From: Archangium violaceum
GTDB taxonomy: Bacteria > Myxococcota > Myxococcia > Myxococcales > Myxococcaceae
Direction of reading: 5' to 3'
Assembly (NCBI RefSeq): GCF_016859125.1
Contig: NZ_CP069338.1
Span: 9,551,501-9,615,500, forward strand
Length of the DNA stretch: 64,000 nt
Under the pieces are notes generated by a model. It did no database searches, was not told the origin of the DNA, and saw nothing but the letters and a program-made list of their open reading frames with translations. The first letter of the stretch is position 1. The number at the start of each line of letters is the position of its first letter. A program made the position numbers and the translations under genes. Shown here piece by piece: positions 8,612 to 25,900 of the stretch.

Positions 8612-8842
8612 TTCGAAGTGTAGGAGCCGCGAGGCATCTGGCGCCCGCTGTCGCACCCCGGAGCGACAACGCTCTCTTGATGGATAAGACTCGGGACGCG
8701 GAAATGATTCGCATCCGGGAATGGGCTCACGGTTGGAAGCGCCATGGAAGCAAGGAGGCAAGGGAAACGATCCATGAGGCGGCCAGAGGCGCTACAATGG
8801 TTCCGTTTCCAACCATCCCCCCCCTTCAGGTTCGGTTTATTC

Positions 8843-10591
8843 ATGGCGAATTCCCCAACCCGTTCACGGCTCGCGGGTCTCGCGCTGGCCTCCCTCCTCT
8901 CCCTCATAGCTTGCGATCCGACTCCGGTCCCGACCCCGACCCCGGACTCGGGTACGTCCGAGCCGTCCACCGACGCCGGCACCGACGCGGGTCTGCCCAC
9001 GGGCGGCCGCTGTGGTGATGGCATCCTCCAGGCCGGCGAGGTCTGCGACGATGGCAACACGGCGGCGGACGATGGCTGTTCGGCCGACTGCAAGGAGCGC
9101 GCGGAGGGCTATACGTGCGAGGTCCCGGGCGTCCCCTGCGTCTTCACGGGAACGTGCGGCAATGGCCAGGTTGAGGCCGCCGAGACCTGCGACGACGCCA
9201 ACACGACGGCCGGCGATGGCTGCTCGGCCAACTGCGGGACGGAGGCGGGATGGAACTGCCCGTCGACGGGTGGGCGGTGCGTGGCCGCGAGGTGCGGTGA
9301 CAAGATCATCGCGGGCGACGAGGAGTGCGAGGACGGCAACGCCACGGCGAATGACGGTTGCAGCGCGGTCTGCCGGCTCGAGGAGGGCTGGAAGTGCCCC
9401 ACCATCGGCGAGAAGTGCACACGCACCACCTGCGGCGACAAGATCGTCGAGGGCACGGAGGAGTGTGACGATGGCAACAACAACCTGGGGGATGGGTGCA
9501 CCCCGCTGTGCAAGCGCGAGCCCAAGTGCACGAATGGCACCTGCGAGGAAGTGTGCGGCGATGGTCTGATGCTTCCCGCCGGCGTCTCCACGGAGGAGTG
9601 CGACGACGGCAACAGGCGCGCCAACGACGGCTGCTCGCCGGACTGCAAGACCGAGTCGGGCTTCGTCTGCACGATCACCGAGTCCACTCCGCCCCAGCAG
9701 GTGGAACTCCCCATCGTCTACCGCGACTTCCGTGGCTATGACCTGGCGGCCAGTGGCGGCCTGCCGAGGGGCCACATCGACTTCGAGAACGCCAATGGCA
9801 CGGAGTCGGGCATCGTGACGAGCACGCTCAGCAGCGACGGCAAGCCCCAATACGCCAAGACGAGCGGCTCCTCCAGCACGACCCACGGCAAGGAGGCGTT
9901 CGATCAGTGGTACCGCGACGTGGCGAACGTGAACGTGCCGGTGGTAGACAAGCTCACCCTGAAGCGCAACGGCACTTCCACCTCCTACGTGTTCGAGAAC
10001 ACCTCCTTCTTCCCGCTCGACAACAAGGGCTGGGTGGCCCTTGGCAAGGAGTCCTCGCGGTCAGGCGGCCACAACTTCAGCTTCACGAGCGAGGTGCGCT
10101 ACTGGTTCGAGTACAAGGAAACCGAGGTGCTCGACTTCTACGGTGATGATGACGTCTGGGTGTTCATCAACGGCCGTCTGGCGCTCGACCTGGGCGGCGT
10201 CCACGGGCCGCTGTCTGGCACCATCAACCTCAAGAGCAAGGCAAGCGAGCTCGGCCTGGTCAAGGGCCGCATCTATGAGGCCGTCGTGTTCCAGGCCGAG
10301 CGCCACACGACGGGTTCCCAGTACAAGCTCACACTCACCGATTTCGTCACGCGCCGCACCGAGTGCCGCGCCACCTGCGGCAACAAGATCGTCGACCCGG
10401 GCGAGGAGTGCGATGACGGCATCAACAACGGCGACTATGGCAAGTGCGCCCGCGGTTGCGTGTGGGGACCCCGCTGCGGCGACAAGGTCGTCCAGGAGGA
10501 CAAGGGCGAGGAGTGCGACGACGGCAACAAGGTGGGCGGCGACGGCTGCTCCGCTACCTGCAAGGTCGAGCTCGCCTTGATCCCCCGGTGA
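8843..10591 (+). CDS. Fibro-slime domain lipoprotein with DUF4215 Cys-rich repeats
   Basis: 582 aa from ATG 8843, which gives a standard lipoprotein signal with lipobox LSLIAC (Cys24). ATG 8774, preceded by AAGGAGG/AAGGGA, would add 23 residues and is an alternative. After a P/T/D linker come five Cys-rich repeats of the form CGDxxxxxGEECDDGNxxxxDGCSxxC, then a fibro-slime domain (from VELPIVYRDFRGYDL to the VFQAERHTTGSQYKLTLTDF end, with YGDDDVWVFINGRLALDLGG), then two more Cys repeats. DUF4215 repeats are typical of myxobacterial surface proteins, and the fibro-slime domain is linked to extracellular matrix or carbohydrate-binding proteins. Probably an outer-membrane-anchored adhesin or matrix protein. 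Confidence 0.85.
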   Translation: MANSPTRSRLAGLALASLLSLIACDPTPVPTPTPDSGTSEPSTDAGTDAGLPTGGRCGDGILQAGEVCDDGNTAADDGCSADCKERAEGYTCEVPGVPCVFTGTCGNGQVEAAETCDDANTTAGDGCSANCGTEAGWNCPSTGGRCVAARCGDKIIAGDEECEDGNATANDGCSAVCRLEEGWKCPTIGEKCTRTTCGDKIVEGTEECDDGNNNLGDGCTPLCKREPKCTNGTCEEVCGDGLMLPAGVSTEECDDGNRRANDGCSPDCKTESGFVCTITESTPPQQVELPIVYRDFRGYDLAASGGLPRGHIDFENANGTESGIVTSTLSSDGKPQYAKTSGSSSTTHGKEAFDQWYRDVANVNVPVVDKLTLKRNGTSTSYVFENTSFFPLDNKGWVALGKESSRSGGHNFSFTSEVRYWFEYKETEVLDFYGDDDVWVFINGRLALDLGGVHGPLSGTINLKSKASELGLVKGRIYEAVVFQAERHTTGSQYKLTLTDFVTRRTECRATCGNKIVDPGEECDDGINNGDYGKCARGCVWGPRCGDKVVQEDKGEECDDGNKVGGDGCSATCKVELALIPR

Positions 10592-10604
10592 GCGGGTCGT
10601 GAGG

Positions 10605-10641
10605 ACGGCCGCTTCGGGGGATCACCACCCGGAGCGGCCGT
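10605..10641 (+). terminator. Long GC-rich hairpin after the fibro-slime gene
   Basis: CGGCCGCTTCGGG (10606-10618) pairs with CCCGGAGCGGCCG (10628-10640) with one mismatch across a 9-nt loop. No U tract follows, so it may end transcription inefficiently or stabilise the mRNA 3' end. Confidence 0.5.
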
Positions 10642-10716
10642 TCGCGTTCCTTCGTGTCGAAGCCGTGCGCCAGTCACGACCTCATCCCCGCTGCCCTCCG
10701 GCCGCACTTTCCTCCA

Positions 10717-10739
10717 ACCTGTCCGGCAATCGGACAAGT
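10717..10739. repeat. Dispersed palindromic repeat, copy 1
   Basis: ACCTGTCCG-GCAAT-CGGACAAGT. The 23-bp block matches 54318-54340 at 21 of 23 positions. The arms TGTCCG/CGGACA are a perfect inverted repeat. Both copies sit in intergenic DNA shortly downstream of a plus-strand gene. Confidence 0.6.
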
Positions 10740-10962
10740 TGCTGAAGACCGGGCCCGGAGGGTCTCCTGCTCTGGATTCGTTCAGGCCCCTGACGAGACT
10801 TTCTTCTCCTGGCTTGGACGTGAAGACATCGGCCGGAAACGTTCACTTTGCGAGTCTCACGGATCTCGCGGCGCGGGACGGGAGGCGGTGCTGGTACACG
10901 GTCCCGCGCTTGAACGTCGACGGGCGGTGCCTCCGGCCCGCCCGGTTCTTCTCGGAGGGAGC

Positions 10963-12558
10963 ATGAAGTCGCGGATGGTGATGTTGGCGGCGCTGGCAGC
11001 GGCGGTCACCGGGTGCGCATCGGCCCAGAAGCCCTCGACGTCGCCCGAGCAGGTGCGGGTCTCGGGGGGCATCGTGCAGGGCTCGGTGGAGAACGGCGTC
11101 CTGGCCTTCAAGGGGATCCCCTTCGCCGCGCCGCCCGTGGGCGACCTGCGCTGGCGCCCGCCCCAACCCGTCCAGGAGTGGAGCGGTGTGCGCCAGGCGA
11201 CCGCCTTCGGTCACGACTGCATGCAGGTCCCCTTCGCGGGCGACGCCGCCCCGCTGGGGACTCCGCCCGCCGAGGACTGTCTGACCCTCAATGTCTGGCG
11301 CGCGGCCGACGCGCCCGCGGACGGCAGGTTGCCGGTGATGGTGTGGATCTACGGCGGCGGCTTCGTGAACGGTGGCTCGTCTCCGTCCGTGTACGACGGC
11401 TCGCGGTTCGCCCAGCAGGGCGTGGTGCTGGTCAGCTTCAACTATCGCCTCGGACGGTTGGGCTTCTTCGCACACCCGGCGCTCACGGCCGAGGCGGAGG
11501 GTGCCCCCACCGGCAACTTCGGCTACATGGATCAGATCGCGGCCTTGGAGTGGGTGAGGAACAACATCGCCGCATTCGGGGGTGATCCGAACAACGTCAC
11601 CATTTTTGGCGAGTCCGCTGGTGGCGGCTCGGTCCACACCCTGCTGACCTCGCCGAAGGCTCGAGGCCTGTTCCACAAGGCCATCATCATGTCGGGCGGA
11701 GGGCGGGGTCCGCTGCTCGGTGGTAGCAAGCTGAGCGAAGACACGCCGGGTGGGCCGCGCTCGGCGGAGTCCGTCGGCGTGGAGTTCGCCAGGAGCGTTG
11801 GTATCCAGCAAACGGGTCCGGAAGCGCTGGCCGCGCTGCGCGCCCTGCCGGTGGAGCGGATCGGTGACCTCAGCATGATGAACATGGGCGTGCCGACCTA
11901 CTCGGGCCCGATCCTCGACGGTCAGATCGTCGTCGAGTGGCCGGACGTCGCCTACCGTGCCGGCCGCTGGGCCAGGGTGCCGGTGATGGTGGGGGCCACC
12001 AGCGCGGACCTGGGCTTCGGCTTCGCCCGGACCAGGGACGAGGTGTTCGCTCCCTTCCCGGATCAGGCGGCGGCTCGCGCGGCCTATGATCCGACCGGAG
12101 AGGCCGACGTGCGCACGCTGGTCGCCCTCACCGCGATGGATCGCACCATGATCGAGCCCGCGCGGTACACGGCCCGACTCGTGGCCGCCCAGGGGCTGCC
12201 TGCCTACCACTACCGCTTCTCCTACGTCGCCGACTCCATGCGTGACGAGTGGAAGACCGGGGCTCCGCACGCGACCGAGATCCCCTACGTGTTCGACACG
12301 GTCCAGGCCAGGTACGGGGCGGAGGCAACCGAGCTCGACCGCAAGGTCGGACGCGAGGCCAACGCCTATTTCGCCAACTTCGCCAGGACGAGTGATCCGA
12401 ACGGACAGGGTCTGCCCCAATGGCCACGATACGAACCCGGTACGGACCTGATCCTGGATTTCTCGGCGAGCGGCGAACCGGTTGCTCAGCCCGATCCGTG
12501 GAAGGCCCGGCTGGACGCGACCGAGGCAGCCGCGAACGCGGCGGCGACCGGGATGTGA
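10963..12558 (+). CDS. Type-B carboxylesterase lipoprotein
   Basis: 531 aa alpha/beta-hydrolase. ATG 10963 was chosen for its GGAGGGA ribosome site and lipoprotein signal (AAAVTGC). The nucleophile Ser218 lies in FGESAGGGS and the catalytic His436 in GAPHATEIPY. The oxyanion region is VWIYGGGF, and the early Cys-containing EDCLTLNVW is a family signature. At the usual acid position (normally GxNxxEG) the sequence is TSADLGFG, so an Asp may replace Glu. It would hydrolyse carboxylic esters at the cell surface; the substrate cannot be predicted. Confidence 0.88.
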   Translation: MKSRMVMLAALAAAVTGCASAQKPSTSPEQVRVSGGIVQGSVENGVLAFKGIPFAAPPVGDLRWRPPQPVQEWSGVRQATAFGHDCMQVPFAGDAAPLGTPPAEDCLTLNVWRAADAPADGRLPVMVWIYGGGFVNGGSSPSVYDGSRFAQQGVVLVSFNYRLGRLGFFAHPALTAEAEGAPTGNFGYMDQIAALEWVRNNIAAFGGDPNNVTIFGESAGGGSVHTLLTSPKARGLFHKAIIMSGGGRGPLLGGSKLSEDTPGGPRSAESVGVEFARSVGIQQTGPEALAALRALPVERIGDLSMMNMGVPTYSGPILDGQIVVEWPDVAYRAGRWARVPVMVGATSADLGFGFARTRDEVFAPFPDQAAARAAYDPTGEADVRTLVALTAMDRTMIEPARYTARLVAAQGLPAYHYRFSYVADSMRDEWKTGAPHATEIPYVFDTVQARYGAEATELDRKVGREANAYFANFARTSDPNGQGLPQWPRYEPGTDLILDFSASGEPVAQPDPWKARLDATEAAANAAATGM

Positions 12559-12650
12559 CGGACGTAAAAAGAGGGTAACGAGAAAAAACAGTTTACCTGA
12601 TGATTCGGGAAATCGTTTAGTGGTCCGCCCCAAGAAAGGCGGGATCACCG

Positions 12651-13718
12651 ATGCTCCTCATTCGTCGTCAGTCTTCTGGCGTCATTGCGCGCGCCGTCGT
12701 CCCTGTTGCCGTGATGTTGCTCTCCGCTTGCGGAGCGAGCTCTCTGGAAGATGAAACCGTTGGAGAGGCCCAGGAGGCGCTCGCGACGGGTGTGGGCTCG
12801 TCCGCGTTCCGGGCCGCCCTCGCCAAGCGTTGGGCGCCCATCCACTACCAGGACGTGGACGTGACGGGCTCGCACTCGCTCGGCGGCCGGTCCGACTACA
12901 TCAGCCGGGTTGACTTCGATGGGGACTGGAGCGGGACGAACAACTGGGACAACGCCGCGTCCAGGCCGCTCACCGCGCATGCCTATCAGTCCGTGGTGGA
13001 GACGAGCTCGCACTGGTACATCGTCTACACCTTCTTCCACCCGCGCGACTGGTCCGACACCATCTTCGACACGGAGCACGAGAACGACGGCGAAGGCGTG
13101 CTGCTCATCGTGGAGCGTGACGGGACCGAGTACGGCAAGCTCATCGGCGCCGTGACGGTGGCGCACAAGGACTTCTTCTCGTTCCTGCCGGATGGCAGCC
13201 CGATCAGCGCGGGCGCGGAGTCGGTCGACGGCAAGCTGTCGTTGGCGCCCTTCGAGGGAGTCCAGCACCCCATCACCGCGCAGGAGGCCAAGGGGCACGG
13301 GCTCAAGGCCTGGCCGGCCTATGACATCGTGGGTGACGGCGTGAAGTACTACCCCTCGCTCACTACCGCCGAGGAGCCCTCGTCGGCCACCGATTCCGAC
13401 GTGCGCTACAAGCTCATCGACATCTACGGTTCCGAGGGGTTGTGGCAGCGCCGGGGCCTTTCCGAGCTGTTCGTGTCCGAGGGCACGTTCCGGGGAGACA
13501 CGAGTGGTGGCTGCGGCCTCATCGCGGGCCTCTGCTCCTCGAACTCGGCGAACGCGCCCTGGGGCTGGGATGACGGGAACGATGGTCCCATCCAGCGCGG
13601 TGAGATCGCCTCCGATCCGGCGAAGCTCGCGGCGCACTACTTCAGCCCGTCCTCCCGGTTCTCGACGACGTACACGTTCAATCCCTTCAAGGGAATTGGG
13701 GACCCGAACGCCCCCTGA
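12651..13718 (+). CDS. Lipoprotein with NPP1/Vps62-like features
   Basis: 355 aa, signal peptide with lipobox (VMLLSAC, Cys27). The core has WAPIHYQDVD, YIVYTFFHPRDWSDTIF and TEHENDGEGVLLIVERDG. The arrangement resembles the region of necrosis-inducing (NPP1) and Vps62/DUF946 proteins where a GHRHDWE-type motif coordinates a metal, but the motif is altered here. A late segment has one Cys pair (GGCGLIAGLC). The relationship is tentative; no activity should be assumed. Leader DNA 12559-12650 is A-rich and probably contains its promoter. Confidence 0.55.
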   Translation: MLLIRRQSSGVIARAVVPVAVMLLSACGASSLEDETVGEAQEALATGVGSSAFRAALAKRWAPIHYQDVDVTGSHSLGGRSDYISRVDFDGDWSGTNNWDNAASRPLTAHAYQSVVETSSHWYIVYTFFHPRDWSDTIFDTEHENDGEGVLLIVERDGTEYGKLIGAVTVAHKDFFSFLPDGSPISAGAESVDGKLSLAPFEGVQHPITAQEAKGHGLKAWPAYDIVGDGVKYYPSLTTAEEPSSATDSDVRYKLIDIYGSEGLWQRRGLSELFVSEGTFRGDTSGGCGLIAGLCSSNSANAPWGWDDGNDGPIQRGEIASDPAKLAAHYFSPSSRFSTTYTFNPFKGIGDPNAP

Positions 13719-13771
13719 GTGCTTACGGGTGGGTGAAGGGCCGGCCGCGCGGGGGCCCGGGGGTTCCTTTT

Positions 13772-13924
13772 TTGCGCGGGGACCGCCGGGAGGGTAGGGA
13801 TGCGGTCTTCGTATGTCTGTGACCGCCGAGCTGCTCGAAGCCGTCCGGGAGGAAGCGCGCCCGGACACCTGGTCCGCCGGCATGGGTCTGGCCCGCGCGG
13901 GTGCCGTCTCGGTGCAGTCCGTCG
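13772..13924 (+). repeat. Direct repeat, copy 1 (duplicated 5' end of helicase gene)
   Basis: This 153-bp segment is identical to 14985-15137 except for one base (C13877 versus T15090). It covers about 40 bp of leader and the first 37 codons of the SNF2 helicase gene. Homology with mismatches extends back to about 13761. Confidence 0.95.
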
Positions 13925-14004
13925 CGGACCTCGCCAGCGTCAAGGCTGATGCCAAGGGGAGTAACTCGACCCATTTGTATGGCTCCCTGGAGCATTCTCG
14001 ATGA
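13813..14004 (+). pseudogene. Truncated copy of the SNF2 helicase start fused to foreign sequence
   Basis: A 63-codon ORF. Residues 1-37 equal the helicase N-terminus (one A-to-V difference), then the sequence diverges abruptly at 13925 to ADLASVKADAKGSNSTHLYG and stops at a TGA that overlaps the ATG of the following lipoprotein gene (ATGA, 14001-14004). It has the same leader as the functional helicase and could be translated as a leader peptide coupled to the lipoprotein. It lacks the SWIM zinc finger and all helicase motifs. Confidence 0.85.
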
Positions 14005-14915
14005 TTGCGTTCCGCCATGTATCCGGAGCAATGTCGAATGCGCTCACGCAGTGTCGCGTCATCAGAGCCATGCTCTGGCTCGCGTGGCTGATGGTCGTTC
14101 CGGGGTGCCCTGACAAGAAGACCGCACCCAATCTCGTGGCTGGTGATGCGGGTGTTGTGGTGGTTGATGCTGGAGGAGGGGCGGATTCGGAAACCGATGC
14201 CGGGAGCACAGGCGCGGAGGCGGCCGCCATGGATGCAGGCCCCCAGGCCGCCACAGCCGTGAAGCCTCCCACGATCGTGCCTGCTGGTGCCATCGACGAT
14301 GAAGACAGCGAGCAGTCTCTCCTGCGCAACTACGCAAAGGTTCTGCAATGGAGTGTTGAGGACGAGTCACTGGATTCATACTGGGAAGTCGTCGAGCGCC
14401 TGAATGTTGGTGATCGGCAGTTCACCCTGGTTCGCCTGGCCAAACACTCCGAGCCTCGTGGCGGCCAGCAGCAGTGGTTGCTCGTGCGCAAGCACCAGAA
14501 GAGCGGACCTGTGTCCTACAGCCCGCTCGCCACGCAATATCCCTTCACGCCTGATCATTGGCAGCAGGTGAAGCCCATTGGCATGAAGCTCCAGCCACTG
14601 GAGAAGTCGTCCAGCAGCGTGCTTTGGATACGCCTCCGAGAGAAGTCCTCGGAGTCAGGGAACGGAGGGGAGCACATCAAGGACAAGGAGCGCCAACTCG
14701 CGTATGCGTTCCTCGTCGACGAACGAGGCGCCTTCAAAGCACTCGCGCTCCAGATTCCCGAGAAGGTGACGCTCTCGGTCGATGATGAGGTGACGGCGGA
14801 GACCACGCTCGAGATCAACATCCCGTCCGTAGAGCGCCTCATCATCCGGCCGGGTCCGACGGGCGTCGATGCCGAGCAGCAGAGCTGGCTCGGTGAGCAC
14901 TCCCTCACGAGGTAG
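14001..14915 (+). CDS. Lipoprotein of unknown function carried inside the duplication
   Basis: 304 aa from ATG 14001, or 294 aa from ATG 14031, which has GGAG just upstream. The signal peptide ends in lipobox VVPGC, followed by an Asp/Gly/Ala-rich linker (DAGVVVVDAGGGADSETDAG). The soluble part shows no family I recognise; it has many aromatic residues and the segment LRNYAKVLQWSVEDESLDSY. Codon use is less GC-biased than in neighbouring genes, in line with acquisition together with the flanking 153-bp repeat. Confidence 0.7.
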   Translation: MIAFRHVSGAMSNALTQCRVIRAMLWLAWLMVVPGCPDKKTAPNLVAGDAGVVVVDAGGGADSETDAGSTGAEAAAMDAGPQAATAVKPPTIVPAGAIDDEDSEQSLLRNYAKVLQWSVEDESLDSYWEVVERLNVGDRQFTLVRLAKHSEPRGGQQQWLLVRKHQKSGPVSYSPLATQYPFTPDHWQQVKPIGMKLQPLEKSSSSVLWIRLREKSSESGNGGEHIKDKERQLAYAFLVDERGAFKALALQIPEKVTLSVDDEVTAETTLEINIPSVERLIIRPGPTGVDAEQQSWLGEHSLTR

Positions 14916-14984
14916 GGGCCCGCCACGGGGGAGCACCGCACCTCAAGAGCAATTGGCTCCGACGCGACCGGGCGGGTGCCTTTG

Positions 14985-15137
14985 TTGCGCGGGGACCGCC
15001 GGGAGGGTAGGGATGCGGTCTTCGTATGTCTGTGACCGCCGAGCTGCTCGAAGCCGTCCGGGAGGAAGCGCGCCCGGACACCTGGTCCGTCGGCATGGGT
15101 CTGGCCCGCGCGGGTGCCGTCTCGGTGCAGTCCGTCG
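14985..15137 (+). repeat. Direct repeat, copy 2 (native helicase 5' end)
   Basis: Second copy of the 153-bp repeat, offset exactly 1213 bp from copy 1. Here it reads through into the intact helicase. The interval between equivalent points is the unit that was inserted or duplicated. Confidence 0.95.
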
Positions 15138-18061
15138 GGCAGGAGGAGGCCGTGCTGCGAGTGCGCGCGGCCGGCCGGCCCGCCCCGCTGACCACCGTGC
15201 TCTACCCGGAGGACGAAATCTGGGAGTGTGACTGCCGCGGCCGGGTGGACCCCTGCGAGCACGTGGTGGCGGCGGCCATCATCCTCCATCACTCGGTGGC
15301 CCAGCGTCCCCCCGCACAGCGCGCCCCGGCGCCACGTGCTCCCGCTTCGTCCATGCCGGCACGGCCCGCCGCGGCCTCCTCGGTCCAGGCCGGCCCGCGC
15401 CCGGGTGCCACGCCGAAGCCGGAGCGCATGGTGTACCGCTTCAAGCGCGTGGAGGGAGGGCTGCAACTCGAGCGCCTTCTGGTGCGTCCGGACAACACCG
15501 CTCGGCTGCTGGCTCGCAGTCTGGCGTCGGTGCTGACGAACCCCGTGGAGGCGGCCCGGATCCAGGTGGAGCCGTGCGATCTGCTCGCGGACAAGCTGCT
15601 GATGCGGCCCACGCGGGGAGCGCTTCCTCCCGAGCGGCTCGATGCGCTCCTGCGTGTGCTGGAGCCCGCGCGCACCGTGCTCTTCGACGGCGTCCTGGTG
15701 TCCGTCTCGAGCGAGCCCCTGCTTCCGCGTGTCACCGTGGAGGACCGGGGCGAGCAGACGGTGCTCAAGGTGGAGAAGGATCCGCGCATCACCGAGGTGG
15801 TGAGCTCCGGGGTGGCGGTGTGCGGAGGCACGCTCTGCCGGCTCGGCGAGCAGAGCCTCACGGGTGCGTGGCTGGAGAAGCTGCCGCAGGAGCGTGTCTT
15901 CTCACCCGAGCAGATGGGGGACCTCACCGGCAAGGTGTTGCCGGACTTCGCGCGGCGCATGCCGGTGGACGTGAGGAGCCAGCGGATTCCGCCCATCGAC
16001 CGCACGCTCGAGCCGCGCATCTCCCTGGAGCTCAACCAGCTGGACTCCGGACTCTCGGTGTTGCCCACGCTGGTGTACGGCTCTCCGCCCTCGGTGCGCA
16101 TCGACAACGGGCGCATGGTGTACCTGAAGGGCGCGGTGCCCGTGCGCGACGAGGCCGCCGAGCAGAAGCTCATCCACCAGCTGCGCGATGATCTGAACAT
16201 GGTGCCCGGCCGGCGCGTGACGGTGCACGGCAAGGAGGCCGTGCAGCTCGCCGACAAGCTGCGGCGCTGGCGCGGCGATCTCACCGGGGACGCGGCGCGC
16301 GTGGTGAGCCCCAACGTGCAGCTGCGTCCCATGCTCTCGGTGGAGGCGGGCGCCACGCAGACGGGTGTGCCGCGGGTGGAGTTCTCGCTCGACTTCCAGG
16401 TCGAGGGCGCGGGGCCGGGCGCGCCGCGCTCGGTGGACGCGGGCGCGGTGATGCGCGCGTGGGAGGAGGGGCTGGGATTGGTGCCGCTCGAGGGCGGCGG
16501 GTGGGCGCCGCTGCCCACCGCGTGGTTGAAGACGCACGGCCAGCGCGTGGCGGATCTGCTGGCCGCTCGCGGGAAGGACGGGCGGCTCGCCAACCACGCC
16601 CTTCCTCAGCTCACCGGATTGTGCGAGGCGCTGGAGCATCCGCCTCCGCCCGGGCTCGAGCGTCTGGCGCCCCTGGTGGAGGGCTTCGAGAAGCTGCCGG
16701 ACGTGCAGCTCCCGAAGGATCTCACCGCGACGCTGCGCCCCTACCAGCTCCAGGGCGTCAGCTGGCTCACCTTCCTGCGGCAGGCGGGCCTCGGCGGCGT
16801 GCTCGCGGACGACATGGGTCTGGGCAAGACGCTGCAGACCCTCTGCATGTTGGGGCCGGGCACGCTGGTGGTGGCCCCCACGAGCGTGCTTCCCAACTGG
16901 GAGGCGGAGGTGAGGCGCTTCCGTCCCTCGTTGAAGGTCTCCGTGTACCACGGCCCCGGCCGCACCCTGGACGAGACGGCCGACGTGACGCTCACCACCT
17001 ACGCGCTGCTGCGCCTGGACGCGGAGGTGCTCGGGGCGAAGACGTGGGACACGGTGGTGCTGGACGAGGCCCAGGCCATCAAGAACCCGGACAGCCAGGT
17101 GGCGCGCGCGGCGTACGGGCTGCAGGCCTCCTTCCGGATCGCCTTGAGCGGTACGCCCATCGAGAACCGGCTCGAGGAGCTCTGGAGCCTGATGCATTTC
17201 ACCAACCAGGGGTTGCTCGGGGGGCGCAAGGAATTCGAGGAGCGGTGGGCGCGGCCCGTATCGGACAACCAGAAGGGCGCGGCCGAGCAGCTGCGCGCGC
17301 GCATCCGCCCCTTCGTGCTGCGCAGGCTCAAGCGGGACGTGGCACCCGAGCTCCCGCCGCGCACCGACTCCGTGCTGCACGTCACCCTCAACGAGCGGGA
17401 GCGCGCCGTCTATGACGCGGTGTACGCCGCCACGCGCGAGGAGGTGGTGTCCCAGCTGGAGGAGGGGGGCAGCGTCCTGAAGGCGCTGGAGGCGCTGCTG
17501 CGGCTGCGTCAGGCGGCGTGCCACCCGGCGCTCGTGCCGGGACAGCAGGCGAAGACGTCCTCCAAGGTGGAGGCGCTGGTCGAGGCGCTCGGCACCGCGG
17601 TGGAGGAGGGGCACAAGGCGCTCGTCTTCTCGCAGTGGACGTCCCTGTTGGATCTCATCGAGCCGGCGCTGAAGGAGGCGGGCATCGGGTTCATCCGGCT
17701 GGACGGCGGCACGTCCAACCGCGGCGCCGTGGCCGCGTCGTTCCAGGATCCGAAGGGCCCTCCGGTGATGTTGATCTCCCTCAAGGCGGGCGCCACGGGG
17801 CTCAACCTCACGGCGGCGGACCACGTCTTCCTGGTGGACCCGTGGTGGAACCCGTCCGTGGAGGCGCAGGCGGCGGACCGCGCGCACCGTATCGGTCAAC
17901 AGCGGCCGGTGATGGTGTACCGGCTGGTGTCCCAGGGCACGGTGGAGGAGAAGATCCTCACCCTGCAGGAGAAGAAGCGCGCTCTCTTCGAGTCCGCGCT
18001 CGGTGGGGCCTCCGGGGCCGCGGCCATCACGCGGGCGGACCTCATGCAGTTGCTCGACTGA
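15026..18061 (+). CDS. SWIM zinc finger SNF2-family DNA-dependent ATPase
   Basis: 1011 aa. The N-terminal SWIM finger has Cys68, Cys70, Cys77 and His79 (CxC-x6-CxH). A middle region of about 450 residues is followed by the SF2 ATPase: Walker A GLGKT with Lys601, motif II DEAQ starting at Asp680, motif [11 protein letters not shown], and a helicase-C lobe with [20 protein letters not shown] and GTVEEKI. These proteins remodel protein-DNA complexes or aid repair and transcription; the bacterial RapA/HepA-like and SWIM-SNF2 group is poorly characterised. Its leader and first 37 codons are duplicated upstream. It is convergent with the START-domain gene. Confidence 0.93.
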
Positions 18062-18070
18062 CTCCCGCCC

Positions 18071-18730
18071 CTATTGGTTGAGGCGCGCGCGGAGGACCGT
18101 TCCCAACACCTTCGCGGTCTCCTCCGGCACGCGGGAGAGGTGCGTGTAGAGCGTCTCCTCCATTTGAGCGATGAGCTCGGGCGCCGCACCGGCCTCCCGC
18201 ATGCCGGCCAGGACGGTATAGGCCGCCATGCCGAGCGGCTCGACGAAGCCATTCGACTCCTCCCAGAACTCCTCGAAGCAGGGCACGGTCTCTCCAGAGG
18301 CGACGCGGATCAGGCGTCCCACGTTGACGTCCCAGTATGCCCTGTAGGCCTCCTCGACCTCCCGGCTCGAGAACGGTCCCTGGCGGATCTTGATGCGAGT
18401 CCCCTCGCCATCGGGGAGGAGGGTGAAGGTGACGCGGGTCGTCTCGTGGCCGAGGTCCCCGCCGTCCCAGCTCAGCTCCATCAAGAATCCCATGCGAGGG
18501 TACATCTCGAGGATGCGGCCGGTCTGCGTCAGGGGAGCGCCCTTCGCATCGAGCAGATTCACCCGGAACGGCCCGTCCTCTTCGTCGTTTCCCTCCTCTC
18601 CAAGGCGATGGCCTCCCGGTGGGGCCCCGTACCAGCGTCGCATCCGGAAGGGGTCCTCGATGGCCGCGAAGACCTGCTCCCGGCTCTGGCCCACCCACCA
18701 CTCCATCGTCAACTCGCGCATGTCGCTCAT
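18071..18730 (-). CDS. START/AHSA1-like ligand-binding domain protein
   Basis: 219 aa. The N-terminal two thirds form a START/SRPBCC-like domain: MEWWVGQSREQVFAAIEDPF, then RVNLLDAKGAPLTQTGRILE and TTRVTFTLLPDGEGTRIKIR. A helical C-terminal tail (EELIAQMEETLY-like) follows. The fold binds hydrophobic ligands or acts as a co-chaperone. ATG 18730 overlaps the stop of the upstream oxygenase gene (ATGA), so the two are probably co-translated and may act on one substrate. Confidence 0.78.
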   Translation of the reverse strand: MSDMRELTMEWWVGQSREQVFAAIEDPFRMRRWYGAPPGGHRLGEEGNDEEDGPFRVNLLDAKGAPLTQTGRILEMYPRMGFLMELSWDGGDLGHETTRVTFTLLPDGEGTRIKIRQGPFSSREVEEAYRAYWDVNVGRLIRVASGETVPCFEEFWEESNGFVEPLGMAAYTVLAGMREAGAAPELIAQMEETLYTHLSRVPEETAKVLGTVLRARLNQ

Positions 18731-19377
18731 GCCAGCGCTCCCTCCCGGGTCCGCAGTTGGAACCGGGGCACCTTCATGAGCAGCGCTTCCGGCATGCGGT
18801 ATTGCTCGACCACCAGGCTGATGCGCGCCGCCGAGAGCTCCGGAGCCCCGGCCTCGACCGCCACCACCTCGTGCACCAGGTCTCCCCGGAACGTCACCAG
18901 CGAGCGTGGCAGGGGCGCCAACGCCGCCACCCTCGCGCCGCGGTGATACAGCCGCAGCTCGCCCCCCGCGAGCTGCTCGGGCACCTGGACGTAGAGCACG
19001 CTCACGGCGAGCGGGCCGTCGGCGCCCGCTCCGTAGAAGGTCATGCTGCGATCCAGGTGCGCATCCACCCCGCGCCCGTTCTGGACCAGGAGCGGGTTGA
19101 GCAGGAACGCGTTGCACTCCGGCAGGATCGCGGCCTGGAGGAACGGGGCGAAGGCGGGGAAGCGGTCCGTCACCTCGGAGAGGGCCTCGCGTCGGAACGT
19201 CACCGAGAAGCCATAGGTCCCCGAGAAATGGGAGGACAGGTTGGTCTCGCCCAGCAGGGAGGAGCCCAGGATGGCCGACCGGATGGCCTCGATGGCGTCC
19301 ACGGGCAGGGCGTCGGGCGTGCGGTGGAAGAAGCTCTGGAGACGGAAGGCTCCGCTCCACGGTGGCTGGAAGCGCAT
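18727..19377 (-). CDS. 2-oxoglutarate/Fe(II)-dependent oxygenase-like protein
   Basis: 216 aa from ATG 19377; GTG 19419 is an alternative start that would add 14 residues (VLIDFSARLRPNPS). A double-stranded beta-helix is suggested by VDAHLDRSMTFYGAG (HxD iron ligands), LYVQVPEQLAGGELRLYHRG, RGDLVHEV (distal His) and RISLVVEQYR (Arg that would bind 2-oxoglutarate). The pattern matches PKHD/prolyl-4-hydroxylase-type enzymes. The substrate is unknown. It is coupled to the START-domain gene downstream. Confidence 0.7.
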   Translation of the reverse strand: MRFQPPWSGAFRLQSFFHRTPDALPVDAIEAIRSAILGSSLLGETNLSSHFSGTYGFSVTFRREALSEVTDRFPAFAPFLQAAILPECNAFLLNPLLVQNGRGVDAHLDRSMTFYGAGADGPLAVSVLYVQVPEQLAGGELRLYHRGARVAALAPLPRSLVTFRGDLVHEVVAVEAGAPELSAARISLVVEQYRMPEALLMKVPRFQLRTREGALA

Positions 19378-19487
19378 GGAGGGATTTGGCCTCAGCCGGG
19401 CCGAGAAGTCGATCAGCACGGATATGTTGTGGCCCTGAAGCAGGGGCGGAAATTGGGAACCGGAATTTGTTGGCTCCCCGGGTGCCC

Positions 19488-21917
19488 TCAGTGTTCGAAC
19501 TGGCCAACGCGCTGTACACCGCGCGCCCGCCTCCGCCGGAATGCCAGCGTGCCCAGCGCGAGCCACGCGAGCGGCGCCACCGGGGCCGCGCCGCAACCGC
19601 AGCCGCCCTCCGGCACCTGCTCCCCGCCCGTCCCCGCGTCCGGCTGGTCCAGCGCGCAGTTCCCGTCACCGACGCACACCGTGATGGTGAAGGCCTGCTC
19701 CGCGTCCGGCGCCTCGCCGTTGCTCACCCGCACGATGACGTCCGCCGAGCCCGCCGCCGAGGGCGTCCAGGAGATGAGGCCGGTGGTCGCGTCGATGGTC
19801 ATCCCCTCTGGCGGCGGCACGCCCACCAACTCATACAGGGGGGCCGGCCGGGCCTCCGCCTCCACGTCGTAGCTGAAGGGGATGCCCACCACCGCGGTGG
19901 TGAGGGGCGTGGAGGTGATGACGGGGGCCAGCGGCTCATCATCCACCTCGACGGCCTCCACCGAGCGCGCGTCCTGTCCCGCCGCGGCCACGGTGATGGT
20001 GGCGACCCCGGTCAGGTTGTCCGCGTCCGACGCGGCCCACAGCGTGACTGTCCTGGGCGTGTTCCAGTCGACGGAAGTGAAGGTGAGCGAAGCCCCGTCC
20101 TGCACCATGATGTCCGCGTCGCCATGCGTGCGGGCCACGTTGACGGTGACGCGACCCGAGGGCTGCTTGGACAGCGACACGCCGAAGGTGGCGGTGCCGT
20201 TCTCCGGGACGGATACCCGTGAGGAGGACAGCACCAGCCTCGGGGCGTTGTTGTCGATGGTGGTGACCCTCGCTGACTCTTCCCCCAGTCCCGCCGCCGT
20301 CACCGTGAAGGTGGCGATGTCCGCATTGGAGTCCGCGTCCTCCGCCGCCGCGATCGTCACCACGCGAGGCACGCTCCAGTCCGCCTGGGAGAAGGTGAGC
20401 GACGCTCCGCTGGCGACGCTCAAATCCTCCGAGCCACCCATCGCCCGAGTCACCTGCACCGTGACGGCCGCGGTGGGCGCCTGGGCCAGGCGCACGGTGA
20501 AGGCGGTGCGCCCGCCCTCCACCACGCGCGGGTTGAGTCCGGACACCACCAACTTCTGACCGGGCGCGGAAGGGGCGATGCGGCGCACGGTGCCGTTGTT
20601 GTACCCGAGCGCATACAGCGCTCCGTCCGGCCCCACCTCCATGTCCACGTTCGACGAGAAGCCCGTGCCCCACTCATCCACCGTGGCCACCGAGTTGTCC
20701 GCCGCCAGCGTGGCGCGAGTCACCTGCCCGGAGTTGTAGTCCCCGAAGAAGTAGTTGCCGCGGTACTCCGGCGGGAAGAGCGTGGCGTCATAGAAGGTGC
20801 CGCCGGTGATGGAGCCGCCCAGCGCCTGCGTCGTCGCGGTGCCGCCCCCGCTGCTCGCATCCGGCTGCCCCGGCTGTGCCACGGTGAAGGTGGTGGCGGA
20901 GGGGGAGGCGGGGATGCTGGCGACGTAGAAGGTACCGTTGAAGCTCGCGTCGTCCACGCCCGCGAGGGTGAGCTTCTCTCCCTTGCGGAAGCCGTGCTGC
21001 CTGGTGGTGGTGAAGGTGGTGACGCCCCCGCTGCGCACCGCCCCACCCGCGGTGAGGTTGCGCATGTCGACGCCGTTGGTGCGGTACTTGATGACCGGCG
21101 GGAGGTACCCGGCGGGCTGGTTGTTCTCGTAGCTGCTGTAGCCGGCGTGGTCTCTCATGCTCACCACGAAGACCTGCTCGTAGTCCGTGCCCACGGTGTT
21201 GCTCCACAGCTCCCCGGTTGCCGGTTGGAAGGTGAGGGTGAACGGATTGCGGAAGCCTCTCGCCCAGATGTACTCGTTGTTGGGGCCCACGCCGTCATAG
21301 AAGGGGTTGTCGTTGGCGGGCGTGCCGTCCAGGTTGGCGCGCCCCACCTTCGCCGCGAGCGACGTCAGGTCGGCATTCACACCGGTGCCGTTGCCCAGGT
21401 CGCCGATGGACCAGTAGAGCTTCCCGTCCGCGCCGAAGCCCAGGCCGCCACCGTTATGGTTCTGCCCGGCGGTGGGCAGCCGGGTGACGACCTCCGTGCG
21501 CGCGGTGCCCACGCCATTGGCGTCCGTGTAGCGGACGATGCGCTGCTCGGTGGAGGAGACGGTGACGAAGAAGTAGACGTACCGGTTGACCACGTAGTTC
21601 GGGTCGAACGCGATGCCGATGAGGCCGCACTCGCTGTTGGTGTAGATGGCGGGCTCCGTCGCGAACACGCTGGAGACGGGCGTGTTCGTCCCCGCCTGCG
21701 TCTCCAGGGCACCGTTCTTCATCGCCACCGTCCGCACCACGCCATTCTTGAGGGTGATGAACAGGCGGCCCGAGCCATCCGGCGCCCAGGCCATGCTCGT
21801 GGCGGGCGTCAGCTCGCTGGACGTGTAGCTCGTCTCCGAGAAGCCCTCGGGCACCGCGGCCCATGAGGGGGAACACCACAGCAGGAGCAACAACGACGTC
21901 ACGAGGGATGAACGCAT
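19488..21917 (-). CDS. Secreted glucose/sorbosone dehydrogenase-like protein with Calx-beta-like repeats and MYXO-CTERM tail
   Basis: 809 aa from ATG 21917 (signal LVTSLLLLLWCSPSWA). The first 450 residues are a six-bladed quinoprotein-like propeller: GIAFDPNYVVNRYVYFFVTV, NHNGGGLGFGADGKLYWSIG, EYIWARGFRNPFTL. Next come two related Calx-beta-like or CHU-type repeats (LVVSGLNPRVVEGG, LVLSSSRVSVPENG), then a putative Ig domain (PEGMTIDATTGLISWTPSAAG). The C-terminus has GGCGCG, a hydrophobic helix and RRRR, the layout of the MYXO-CTERM sorting signal. An oxidoreductase or a surface-displayed binding protein. Confidence 0.85.
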   Translation of the reverse strand: MRSSLVTSLLLLLWCSPSWAAVPEGFSETSYTSSELTPATSMAWAPDGSGRLFITLKNGVVRTVAMKNGALETQAGTNTPVSSVFATEPAIYTNSECGLIGIAFDPNYVVNRYVYFFVTVSSTEQRIVRYTDANGVGTARTEVVTRLPTAGQNHNGGGLGFGADGKLYWSIGDLGNGTGVNADLTSLAAKVGRANLDGTPANDNPFYDGVGPNNEYIWARGFRNPFTLTFQPATGELWSNTVGTDYEQVFVVSMRDHAGYSSYENNQPAGYLPPVIKYRTNGVDMRNLTAGGAVRSGGVTTFTTTRQHGFRKGEKLTLAGVDDASFNGTFYVASIPASPSATTFTVAQPGQPDASSGGGTATTQALGGSITGGTFYDATLFPPEYRGNYFFGDYNSGQVTRATLAADNSVATVDEWGTGFSSNVDMEVGPDGALYALGYNNGTVRRIAPSAPGQKLVVSGLNPRVVEGGRTAFTVRLAQAPTAAVTVQVTRAMGGSEDLSVASGASLTFSQADWSVPRVVTIAAAEDADSNADIATFTVTAAGLGEESARVTTIDNNAPRLVLSSSRVSVPENGTATFGVSLSKQPSGRVTVNVARTHGDADIMVQDGASLTFTSVDWNTPRTVTLWAASDADNLTGVATITVAAAGQDARSVEAVEVDDEPLAPVITSTPLTTAVVGIPFSYDVEAEARPAPLYELVGVPPPEGMTIDATTGLISWTPSAAGSADVIVRVSNGEAPDAEQAFTITVCVGDGNCALDQPDAGTGGEQVPEGGCGCGAAPVAPLAWLALGTLAFRRRRARGVQRVGQFEH

Positions 21918-22047
21918 GACCGATGAAGCTAACGCACGCGAAGTGCGACTTCCGTCCGTCATGTGTCCGCGCTCGCGCCGCACCCCCCACCGGCTTTTTA
22001 CAACCCTGTTGCCACAACCAGTCGCGCCGGGTGACGCGGTACATGAA

Positions 22048-22079
22048 AACGGCGGCCTCCCGGGAAGGAGACCGCCGTT
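22048..22079 (-). terminator. Hairpin terminator of the M4 protease operon
   Basis: AACGGCGGCCTCC (22048-22060) and GGAGACCGCCGTT (22067-22079) pair with one mismatch around a 6-nt loop. Read on the minus strand the stem ends in GCCGTTTTC, a short U tract. It lies 30 bp after the stop of the cohesin-like gene and separates that operon from the dehydrogenase-like gene. Confidence 0.7.
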
Positions 22080-22108
22080 CGAACTACCAGGAGTGAGGAC
22101 TCACCGGC

Positions 22109-22903
22109 TCACCGGGTGGTGAGCGTCCCCACGGCCACGTCGATGGCACCCAGGGCGCCGCTGTCCGACAGGGCGTGCGCCTTGACGACGGAGATGGGAA
22201 CGAGGGTTCCCGCCGGCGTCGAGGGGCCGGTCTTCAGATCCAGCGCCACCGAGAGCAGGGCCCCGGAGTACGCCGTCGCCGGGCCGAGCGTGCCCTTCTG
22301 GAACACGCCGACCGTGAGGGTGCCCTCCTTGACGTTGCTCTTGAAGAGCCGAGGCTCGGCGCCCAGCTCGAACAGCCGGTTGGTCACGTACTCGGTGTCC
22401 GCGTCGGACACCTTGGCCCAGCTCGCCCGGGTCGGGTCCACCGAGAGCGTCAGGCCCACGCCCCGGCCGGACTGATCCGCGGGGCCCACGAGATCCAGCA
22501 CGAGCCGGCTGTCCGTGGAGGCACTGGTGTTCTTCACGAAGCGCCAGCCGGTGCCCGTCGGATCCTGATAGCCAACGCCCGAGGTGCCCGGCACGGTGAC
22601 GGTGGCCGTGTCCTTCTTCGAGGTGTCCACCGCGTTCGTGGCCACCACGGTGTAGGTGCCGGGCTCCGAGGGCGCGGTGTAGACACCCGTGCTGGTGATG
22701 GTGCCGTGGGCATCGCCGCCCTCCACCGACCAGAGCACCCGGGGCTCCTTGGCGTCCTTGACGGTGGCGGTGAAGGTGAGCTTCTCACCCGCGTTCATGG
22801 TGGCGGTCTTCGGTGAGATCGTCACCGGCCCCGCGTTGGGGTTGCCGCAGGCGGTAAGCAGCCCGAGCAGCAGCGGAACAATGAATTGAGTCAACGTTTT
22901 CAT
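22109..22903 (-). CDS. Lipoprotein with Ig-like and cohesin-like domains
   Basis: 264 aa. Signal peptide with lipobox LLTAC (Cys19). Residues about 26-105 form a bacterial Ig-like (Big2-type) domain: TISPKTATMNAGEKLTFTAT, LWSVEGGDAHGTITSTGVYT. Residues about 115-264 look like a beta-sandwich of the cohesin/CBM type: RLVLDLVGPADQSGRGVGLT, EGTLTVGVFQKGT, SGALLSVALDLKTG, GALGAIDVAVGTLTTR. The upstream gene, 3 nt away, ends in a dockerin, which supports the cohesin reading: the lipoprotein could anchor the protease at the cell surface. The cohesin call is inference from pattern and context. Confidence 0.6.
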   Translation of the reverse strand: MKTLTQFIVPLLLGLLTACGNPNAGPVTISPKTATMNAGEKLTFTATVKDAKEPRVLWSVEGGDAHGTITSTGVYTAPSEPGTYTVVATNAVDTSKKDTATVTVPGTSGVGYQDPTGTGWRFVKNTSASTDSRLVLDLVGPADQSGRGVGLTLSVDPTRASWAKVSDADTEYVTNRLFELGAEPRLFKSNVKEGTLTVGVFQKGTLGPATAYSGALLSVALDLKTGPSTPAGTLVPISVVKAHALSDSGALGAIDVAVGTLTTR

Positions 22904-22906
22904 GGC

Positions 22907-25900
22907 TTACCGTCCGAACTGGCTGACGAAGAGGGTGACGTCGTTGTCGTCCACGGAGCTGCTCGCATCGAGATCCACGTCCTCGCTGTAGAGCGGGGCG
23001 TCGGAGTCGGTGGCGCCGTAGGCCCGGGCCATCCGGCCCATGTCCTCTCCGTCCACGACATGATCTCCGTTGAGATCGCCGGTGAAGACCTTGATGGTCG
23101 TCGTAGCGCTCGCTCCGGGGGCGACGGTGCTGGTGGCCGTGGCGTGGCAGAAGCCCGTCGCGGTGGGCGCGGTGTAGACGCCATCCGCGGAGAGGGAACC
23201 GCAGATGCGTCCTTCCTTCAGGACCCAGGTGAATGACGTGTCCACCGCATGGGCGACGCTCGCGGTGAGGGTGGCCGAGCCGCCCACCGGCACCACGATG
23301 AAGGGCGACCCGACGCTCACGGAGACGGCCTCGCTCGTGAAGGTGGTCGAGGCCTTGTTGGAGTGGCCGTAGGCGTCGTACGCGACCGCCTCCAGGGTGT
23401 GCTCGCCGGGCGACAGCGGGAGGAGGCTGAAGGGGAGCGTGTAGGGCGGTGCCAGGGCCCGGCCCTTGAACGCGCCATCCACGTAGAACTCCACGGCGGT
23501 GACGCCCGTGTCGTCGGTGGCCTCGGCCTTCAGGACCGTCGTCTCGAACATGCCCTCCAGGCCCACGCTGACAGTGGGGCCGGCCACGTCCTCCACCTTG
23601 GAGTTGAAGATGTCGAAGGCCACCTCCGCGGTGCTCTCGTTGCCCGAGATGTCCACCGCCTTGACCGTCAGGGTGTGGGGACCGTTGGTCAGGTCGGCCG
23701 CGTCGAACGGCTCCGTGTAGCTGCCATGGGGATCCGTGCGCGTGGCCACCGGGTTGCCGTCCACGGAGAACTCCAGGCGCGACGTCCAGACGTTGTCGCT
23801 CACGGCGGCGTGGAGTTGGACCGTCTTCCCGTAGGTGCCACTGACGGACGCGGTGAGCTGGGGCGCCAGCGTGTCCGGCGTGCTCGTGGTGGTCAGCGTC
23901 ACGTCGTCGAGGAACATCTGGGTGACGCCATCCGGGAGCTGCGGCGCCTCCGTCTGGTTGGCCTCGAAGACGAGCTGGATCGTCTGGCCCCTGTAGGCGC
24001 TCAGATCGAAGCGGTGCTCATAGTAGTCGCCGGCGGTGTCATCCAGGTTGGAGAAGGACTGGAGCGTCCTCAGAGCCGTGCCGCTGGAGTCCCGCACCTT
24101 CGCGATGAGGGTGTGGTGCGCCTCCCCATCGGTGAACGCGCTGTTGTGGAGGCGCAGCCAGAAGCTGTAGATGGCCGAGGTGGAGTCCGCTGGGATGGTG
24201 AGGGTCTGGCCCACGGACGACGTGTGGGGGCCCAGGTTCGACCAGAAGAGGAAGAACCTCGCGCCCGTGTGGGCGAACGAGCTGTTCGTGAAGAAGCGGG
24301 ACGAGCCAGTCAGGGTCGTGGTGATCGGCCAGAGCGCCTGACCCGCGGCGGTCGAGTCCTCGAAGCCGGGGTTCAGCACCCGCTGCTGTTGGTTGCGGTC
24401 GAGGAAGAACGCCACCAGGGCCGACTCCCCCACGTTGCCGGCCGCGTCCACGGCTCGGGCCATGACGGTGTGCGCGCCGTTGGACAGCGACGAGGCGTCC
24501 ACCACGTGGGTGAACACGTTGGACGCGGTCCCCACCGACGCACCATCCAGGAAGAACTCGACGGCGTCGACATGGCCGTTGTCCGACACGTTCGCGAAGA
24601 GCCCCACCTTGCCGCCCACCACGACGGCCTGGGCCGTCACGGAAGGTGTCTCGGAGTCGGCGGAGCCGCTCACGCGCAGCGTGAAGTCATCCAGCTTGAA
24701 GCTGGTGCCGAGCGTGGCGTCCTCGTTGCCCTCCAGGTAGATGCGGACGGTCTGGCCCGCGTAGGCGGAGAGGTCGAAGCTGCGCTGCACCCACCCGAGC
24801 GTCGCGTCCAGGTTGGACCAGGTGGCGAGCGTCTCCAGCACCTCTCCCGAGGTGCTGCGCACCTGCACCACCAGGGTGTCCCTGGCGGCGGTGGCCGGCT
24901 CCGCGGTGGTGAGCTCGAGGTAGAAGGTCAGCGAGGCCCGCGCGGCGGAGGCGGGGATGGTGACGTCCTGGTAGAGGTTGTCCACGTGGACGGTGCCGTA
25001 CCCGTTGAGCCAGACGTAACCCTGGCCCGTGTGCGCGCCGGTCACGGGATGGTTGATGTTGCCGCGGGGATCGGCCTCCCATCCCTCGCCAGCCTTCTCG
25101 AAGCCCGGATCCCTCAGGAGCTGATCGAAGCTGTTGGCCACGTTGAAGGAGTAGGGCGCCGACGGGCCCACGTTGCCAGCCAGGTCGTAGGCCTTCACCA
25201 CCAACTGGTGCGTTCCGTTGGAGAGCGTGGTGGTGTCGAGCGGCACCGTGAAGGGCAGCGAGGAATCCGTGCCCACGATGGCCCCGTCGACGAGGAACTC
25301 CACGCGCGTGATGCCCACGTTGTCCGTGCCCAGGGCGTGCAGCTGGAGGCCAGGGGCGGTGCCCGAGACGCTCGCGGTGACGGACGGCGCCATCCGGTCA
25401 TCATAGGTGTTGGCGGTGTAGCCCACGTTGATGGCGGCGAAGGCGTTCTGCACCGCGCGGTACTCGTTGGACGCGGCGCCGAAGAGGTCCGCCGCCGACC
25501 GCAGGGACGCCGTGCGGGCCACCAGGTAGTTGGCTGACGGGAACATGTAGACGGTGATGGCCCGGTACCAGATGGCCGCCGCCTTGTCGTTGCCGATCCC
25601 CTCCATGCCCTCGGGCAGGTACTCGCTGGAGGTCTCGAGCCCGAAGCTCGCCTTGTCCGCGCCCTGGGACAGGAAGTAGAAGGCGCGGTTCATCGGGCCG
25701 CTGCTGAAGTGGACGTCGATGTTCTCGATGCCGGGGTACCAGGCATCCACGCTCACGCCGTCCAGACTCGGCTTGTGCATGTAGCGCATCGGAGCGTACG
25801 GGTTCAGGCTCTCGCCGATGAACCAGTTGCCCTTGGTGCCATCTCCGATGGTGGAGCCCTGGCCGTTGCGCACCCAGAACTCCGTCATGGTGCCGAAGAT

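Follow-up and report, generated by a model that had tools for sequence, protein, structure and literature searches.

An orphan immunity-like lipoprotein gene behind a duplicated helicase 5′ region in Archangium: a putative case of promoter capture

In the 64,000-nt stretch of Archangium DNA analysed here (the window), a lipoprotein gene lies between two direct-repeat copies of the 5′ region of an SNF2 helicase gene. On balance, we read this gene as an orphan T6SS-type immunity gene that, together with the last 26 codons of its effector gene, has captured the promoter and the translation start of the neighbouring helicase. The locus reads, in order, as helicase promoter and 5′ end, fused effector tail, orphan immunity gene and intact helicase gene, all on the plus strand.

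Results

A repeat search of the window returned two 164-nt direct-repeat copies, at 13761–13924 and 14974–15137, with a spacing of 1213 bp and an identity of 98%. The copies differ at three positions (13765/14978, 13771/14984 and 13877/15090). Within them, a 153-bp core (13772–13924 and 14985–15137) contains a single mismatch, and its 5′ boundary falls exactly at a TTGCGC block. Repeat search and alignment therefore agree with the first-pass annotation of this DNA, which had described a 153-bp segment occurring twice, 1213 bp apart, with one mismatch. The duplicated segment comprises the leader of the SNF2 helicase gene, its ATG and its first 37 codons. A 164-bp repeat of such similarity is far beyond chance, and a chance origin was rejected on the length and similarity of the pair. 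We also surveyed 1.28 Mb (10%) of the same genome for pairs of at least 70 bp lying 0.25–12 kb apart; only a handful of comparable direct-repeat pairs occurred outside repeat-rich or paralogous genes.

Copy 2 (14985–15137) supplies the promoter-like leader and first 37 codons of the complete helicase gene (15026–18061). The latter is a single ORF of 1011 aa, which bears out the earlier claim that the host gene is intact. According to Pfam, the predicted protein contains SNF2-rel_dom (2.6e-61) and Helicase_C (2.4e-19) domains; its N-terminal, SWIM-like zinc finger scored 17.5 bits, just below the cut-off of 19.6. A paralogous second SNF2 helicase gene (L031:7892–10824), sharing 77% DNA identity over 2.5 kb, is present in this genome and in the congeners.

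The leader of copy 1 (13761–13924) includes a putative core promoter at 13772–13800, consisting of TTGCGC, 17 bp and TAGGGA. The TTGC and TAGG blocks, 17 bp apart, keep their positions and spacing in all six Archangium species compared. A canonical sigma-70 promoter was sought in the leader and none was detected; because the leader is not a consensus sigma-70 match, it is by position and conservation that we infer a promoter. Immediately upstream, a terminator-like hairpin followed by a T run ends at 13768 and may be part of the upstream gene.

From the ATG of copy 1, the ORF list and translation give a 63-codon fusion ORF (13813–14004), in which helicase codons 1–37 continue into 26 in-frame codons and a stop. 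The TGA of this ORF overlaps, as ATGA, the start codon of the lipoprotein gene at 14001. A GGAG at 13989–13992, within the 26-codon tail and 8 nt before that ATG, is the probable ribosome-binding site as read from the sequence. The lipoprotein gene, hereafter the cargo gene, occupies 14001–14915 and encodes 304 aa. Its GC content is 61.7% (GC3 0.74), versus 71.7% (GC3 0.93) for the helicase gene and 68.4% over 1.2 Mb of the same genome. GC content and ORFs thus confirm that a lower-GC lipoprotein gene lies between the copies and overlaps the truncated helicase ORF, as first reported. The 69 bp that separate the cargo gene from copy 2 (14916–14984) form a spacer whose last ~17 bp resemble the sequence natively present upstream of the helicase promoter. 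The ORF list likewise upholds the earlier remark that no transposase or integrase is visible between the copies.

The arrangement places the conserved blocks, the ATG and 37 helicase codons directly ahead of the cargo gene, as the first-pass annotation had noted for the leader and start. Since leader, start and coding segment stand together before it, they could drive the cargo gene as a translationally coupled leader. We consider this captured-leader reading plausible.

We then compared the locus with those of five Archangium genomes (G001–G005), including A. violaceum Cb vi76 (G004). Orthologues of the helicase gene were present in all five at 88–91% DNA identity, the G004 copy being partial. 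In each congener, the helicase 5′ end was single-copy and the cargo gene was absent from the helicase locus. The two copies in the window differ from each other by one change in 153, versus identities of 85–89% to any congener. Because the copies are far closer to each other than to the congeners, the duplication is either recent or homogenised.

Gene order around the helicase gene, assessed for positions 8700–23000 of the window against the five congeners, was not conserved: beyond the helicase gene and ~50 bp of leader, nothing was common within ~20 kb. The neighbours in the window (an esterase gene, the gene at 12651–13718, the oxygenase region and a sorbosone-dehydrogenase-like gene) each occurred elsewhere in the congeners. 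Overall, the helicase gene with its ~50-bp leader was found in at least four different contexts among the genomes compared. The proposed check for an empty site in relatives thus succeeded in part. All five congeners have one copy and no cargo gene; because most of them have other flanking genes, the empty site is established for the helicase gene and its leader and not across both flanks. At the corresponding locus of A. violaceum (G004:C304), the helicase gene is preceded, at a distance of 58 bp, by an immunity gene of the SitI6 family (double-CXXCG; TIGR02264, 325 bits; L029:1604–2323, minus strand).

The congeners also bear on which of the two copies is native. Over columns −17 to −9, counted from the −35-like block, 25 of 45 cells of the copy 2 flank matched the congeners (p = 0.006 against random genome DNA) and 15 of 45 cells of the copy 1 flank did so (p = 0.36), values that serve as a guide only, as the five congeners are related to each other; the test comprises 9–17 columns. 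In the coding part, copy 1 carries A22, the residue of all five congeners; A22V is derived and occurs in copy 2 only. Because copy 2 holds the native upstream flank, it probably lies in its native setting, copy 1 is probably the added piece, and the helicase gene was probably never interrupted.

The sequence and an AlphaFold model of the cargo protein indicate a signal helix (residues 11–29), a lipobox (VPGC) with Cys36, a disordered linker and a β-rich domain (residues 96–304). The model is of moderate quality, with a mean pLDDT of 71 and values mostly of 75–95 in the domain. No significant match was found in a search of the PDB for a relative of solved fold, nor did the protein match any Pfam or NCBIfam entry; the profile libraries gave no named family. 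The family is patchy, with relatives at E ≤ 0.001 in 4 of 145 genomes of the order. In its own genome, the cargo protein is encoded by one gene, the remaining family members being paralogues of 27% identity. A. violaceum Cb vi76 has a relative of ~40% identity at another place in its genome, and the search of the other four congeners yielded none but one very weak partial match, in G005. An ancient lipoprotein gene shared in the same arrangement by all close relatives was the counter-case raised by the first-pass annotation; the arrangement occurs in none of the five congeners. We rejected an ancient, ordinary lipoprotein gene, given that relatives are lacking in four of the five congeners, distant and elsewhere in A. 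violaceum, and rare in the order.

Three family members, one in A. violaceum (L032) and two in the genome under study (L033 and L034), are encoded directly 3′ of homologous, effector-like genes of ~850 aa. The effector–immunity pair of L034 adjoins and follows a vgrG gene (TIGR03361, 605 bits). The position directly 3′ of an effector gene is the usual context of immunity proteins. Given that large effector genes immediately precede these relatives of the cargo gene, in one case next to vgrG, the cargo protein is probably a T6SS effector immunity protein, a function read from gene context. It may act against a cell-wall toxin injected by a rival. Inspection of the effector by eye suggested LytM/M23-like and lysozyme-like motifs; Pfam and NCBIfam gave no match. 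An AlphaFold model of the effector was unusable (pLDDT 34), and no convincing relative of solved structure was found. Genes for the T6SS component TssC are present in this genome, and the genus possesses sheath genes.

A fourth relative, the closest to the cargo protein, is encoded by the Archangium MAG SZUA-606 (G008:C405, L025:2404–3672) and shares 81% DNA identity with the cargo gene over the C-terminal domain. It is a two-part lipoprotein in which a different N-terminal domain is fused to the cargo-type immunity domain, and it may be a compound immunity protein. The gene lies 3′ of one that, in our reading of its sequence, has a JAB-type look and that has no Pfam match. Comparison of the cargo gene with this homologue gave a dN/dS of ~0.2–0.3. 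As an estimate from the two sequences, this value shows purifying selection on the immunity domain generally and does not demonstrate it for the cargo copy itself.

Two further features were observed at L034 (5600–10989). An ISAzo13-type transposase gene interrupts the effector gene next to vgrG. Behind this effector gene come an immunity gene that is intact and a small Lys-rich gene, and also a second, decayed copy of the immunity gene, which suggests tandem duplication in the immunity family.

Beyond helicase codon 37 (junction at 13924), the 26 in-frame codons read ADLASVKADAKGSNSTHLYGSLEHSR, followed by the stop. The segment at 13924–14004 resembles the 3′ end of a gene of the T6SS-effector family. 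The C-terminus of the A. violaceum effector ends in DIKAKTGSHSASRYMHDFLKHSR, in the same frame and at much the same distance from its immunity gene as the tail in the window. In C-terminus-anchored alignments to the tail, the A. violaceum effector scored better than all 1352 control C-termini, which were taken from the genome under study. The effector from that genome itself outscored 1350 of the 1352, and a third effector all but fourteen. A plain local alignment of the tail with the effector C-terminus was weakly significant (p ~0.03). Because the anchored alignment is strong and the plain local alignment weak, our confidence that the 26-residue tail represents an effector remnant is good but not complete.

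Using tblastn, we searched an 882-kb stretch around the window (~0.4 Mb on each side) for the cargo gene and for VgrG and effector homologues near it. The cargo gene was found once, VgrG was not found, and the effector gave one match of 110 residues, to its N-terminal region, ~0.3 Mb away. The genome encodes one intact effector of the family and one, described above, that is interrupted; each has its own immunity gene. Other matches in the genome were short, N-terminal ones in other large proteins. The cargo gene is therefore an orphan: its cognate effector is absent next to it, and the 26-codon tail is left.

Discussion

The history that we favour is a tandem duplication followed by loss of the upstream copy. 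In the ancestor, an effector–immunity pair on the same strand as the helicase gene would have immediately preceded the helicase promoter. Duplication would then have joined helicase codon 37 to the 3′ end of the effector gene, creating a unit of helicase promoter, fusion ORF and immunity gene. With subsequent loss of the effector gene and any first immunity copy, copy 1 would have come to abut the upstream gene. In the resulting locus, the copied promoter would transcribe the unit, and ribosomes would translate the 63-codon fusion leader before restarting at the overlapping ATG, aided by the GGAG that the effector tail contains. Export would take the lipoprotein to the periplasm, where it would protect the cell when a relative injects the effector. 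Among the elements of this account, the repeat, its single-copy state in congeners, the family context, the similarity of the tail and the orphan state are observed, and it is from these that we infer the order of events, expression and protection.

The main alternative, possible if doubtful, is that the insert arrived in one illegitimate step. A foreign effector tail and immunity gene would have been joined where the helicase 5′ region had suffered a staggered break, through either Ku-type end joining and fill-in or homology-facilitated illegitimate recombination, and the 153-bp overhang would have become the direct repeat. A single step of this kind yields the order of repeat, insert and repeat; Ku is present in all six genomes, and for T6SS immunity arrays the homology-facilitated route has been proposed (PMC5361080). 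One-step insertion predicts, however, that the native flank is at copy 1, and the congeners favour copy 2.

The tandem stage itself is not directly visible, as a second immunity or cargo copy upstream of the junction is absent. Because that copy is missing, one must assume either that it was lost later or that one deletion with templated insertion took place. The latter, which we judge unlikely, envisages break repair in an effector–immunity–helicase locus, during which the body of the effector gene was replaced by a copy of the helicase 5′ end. Product and function would be the same as under tandem duplication and loss, and the history alone would differ. Templated insertion has the merit of accounting, in one event, for the native flank of copy 2, the shortness of the copy, the lone immunity gene and the in-frame join. 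Against it, the start of the copied segment at a promoter-like block and the in-frame fusion would be coincidences unless selected. Moreover, we sought the effector–immunity–helicase order in the five congeners and found no genome with this ancestral arrangement.

The first-pass annotation viewed the insert as a small element that had integrated into the end of the helicase gene and restored it. The intact host gene and the direct repeats flanking the insert agree with that view, but an integrase, an att-like core and inverted ends are all absent: we found no transposase gene or terminal inverted repeats at the ends of the insert and no integrase-sized ORF within it. Furthermore, the repeat is the host's own allele, with one base in 153 different, the flank of copy 2 is native, and the cargo is accounted for as a gene fragment and its neighbour, namely an effector-type 3′ tail and an immunity-type gene, with no viral contig match. 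The claim is therefore not supported, and we regard an integrative element as very improbable. Mobile-element cargo in general was rejected for want of a transposase, integrase, inverted ends, plasmid match or viral contig relative. The integrase-encoding elements of PMC8409611 resemble the present locus in that they, too, involve a host gene at its promoter and 5′ end and keep that gene open; they differ in encoding an integrase and bringing their own, different N-terminus, whereas the insert described here lacks an integrase and its repeat is host sequence. Least credible of all is an assembly artefact or chance: one genome of the species is available, but its assembly is a single contig of 12.68 Mb, three sites distinguish the copies, the insert carries an intact gene that has relatives in genomes other than this one, and on the scale of long reads a 164-bp repeat with a 1.2-kb spacing is short.

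Tandem duplication with loss of the upstream copy has a close parallel in the laboratory. During the long-term experiment with E. coli, a unit comprising the rnk promoter, a truncated rnk–citG fusion ORF and complete citT arose by tandem duplication (PMC5918244), and promoter capture usually proceeds via deletion or tandem duplication (PMC11111574). The Archangium locus contains the corresponding junction, in which the promoter and 5′ end of the downstream gene are followed by the 3′ remnant of the upstream gene and then by the cargo. In both cases, the promoter and 5′ part of a downstream gene run into the truncated 3′ part of an upstream gene, and the resulting fusion ORF precedes a complete cargo gene. 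They differ in that the upstream cargo copy persists in E. coli and the duplication is unstable, whereas the Archangium locus has one cargo copy, is a natural event and carries an immunity-like cargo. Because a second cargo copy is absent, we describe the locus as working like promoter capture by tandem duplication and do not count it as a member of that class.

Orphan T6SS immunity genes are also known. In Vibrio cholerae, they remain after displacement of the effector, as do displaced effector 3′ ends (PMC5361080). The cargo gene resembles these orphans as an immunity gene retained without its effector. By contrast, the V. cholerae arrays lie behind a new effector module in T6SS clusters, and the cargo gene is a lone gene behind the copied promoter of an unrelated helicase. 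The locus is most likely a natural, well-preserved variant that combines two known phenomena, an orphan immunity gene and promoter capture.

An immunity gene that has lost its effector needs a new promoter, and how such promoters are acquired is rarely visible. The sequence of this locus appears to show the process, with the junction, what is left of the effector gene and the promoter that was captured all still readable. If confirmed, the locus would parallel, in nature and in a gene of contact-dependent competition, the citT event of the laboratory. The arrangement leads to a prediction: recombination between the repeats would remove the cargo gene and leave a single-copy helicase leader.

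With respect to the slot upstream of the helicase gene, the myxobacterial SitI6-family (double-CXXCG) immunity gene of A. violaceum G004 occupies the same position as the cargo gene. The products of the two genes belong to unrelated families, and the helicase 5′ end is not duplicated in G004. It is a speculative and rather improbable extension that the slot upstream of the helicase promoter has repeatedly received immunity genes of kin competition in Archangium and that copying of the helicase promoter, start and first codons is a transposase-free means of activating them.

Finally, one of the direct-repeat pairs in the 1.28-Mb survey of the same genome is a second partial duplication linked to immunity. 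A 175-bp piece of a truncated SitI6-family gene (L116:5123–5743, minus strand) occurs twice, with 97.7% identity and 6.5 kb apart, at genome positions 3525333–3525507 and 3531878–3532052, around a module that includes a Tox-PAAR-like gene. Partial duplications may occur more widely around the toxin–immunity loci of this genome.
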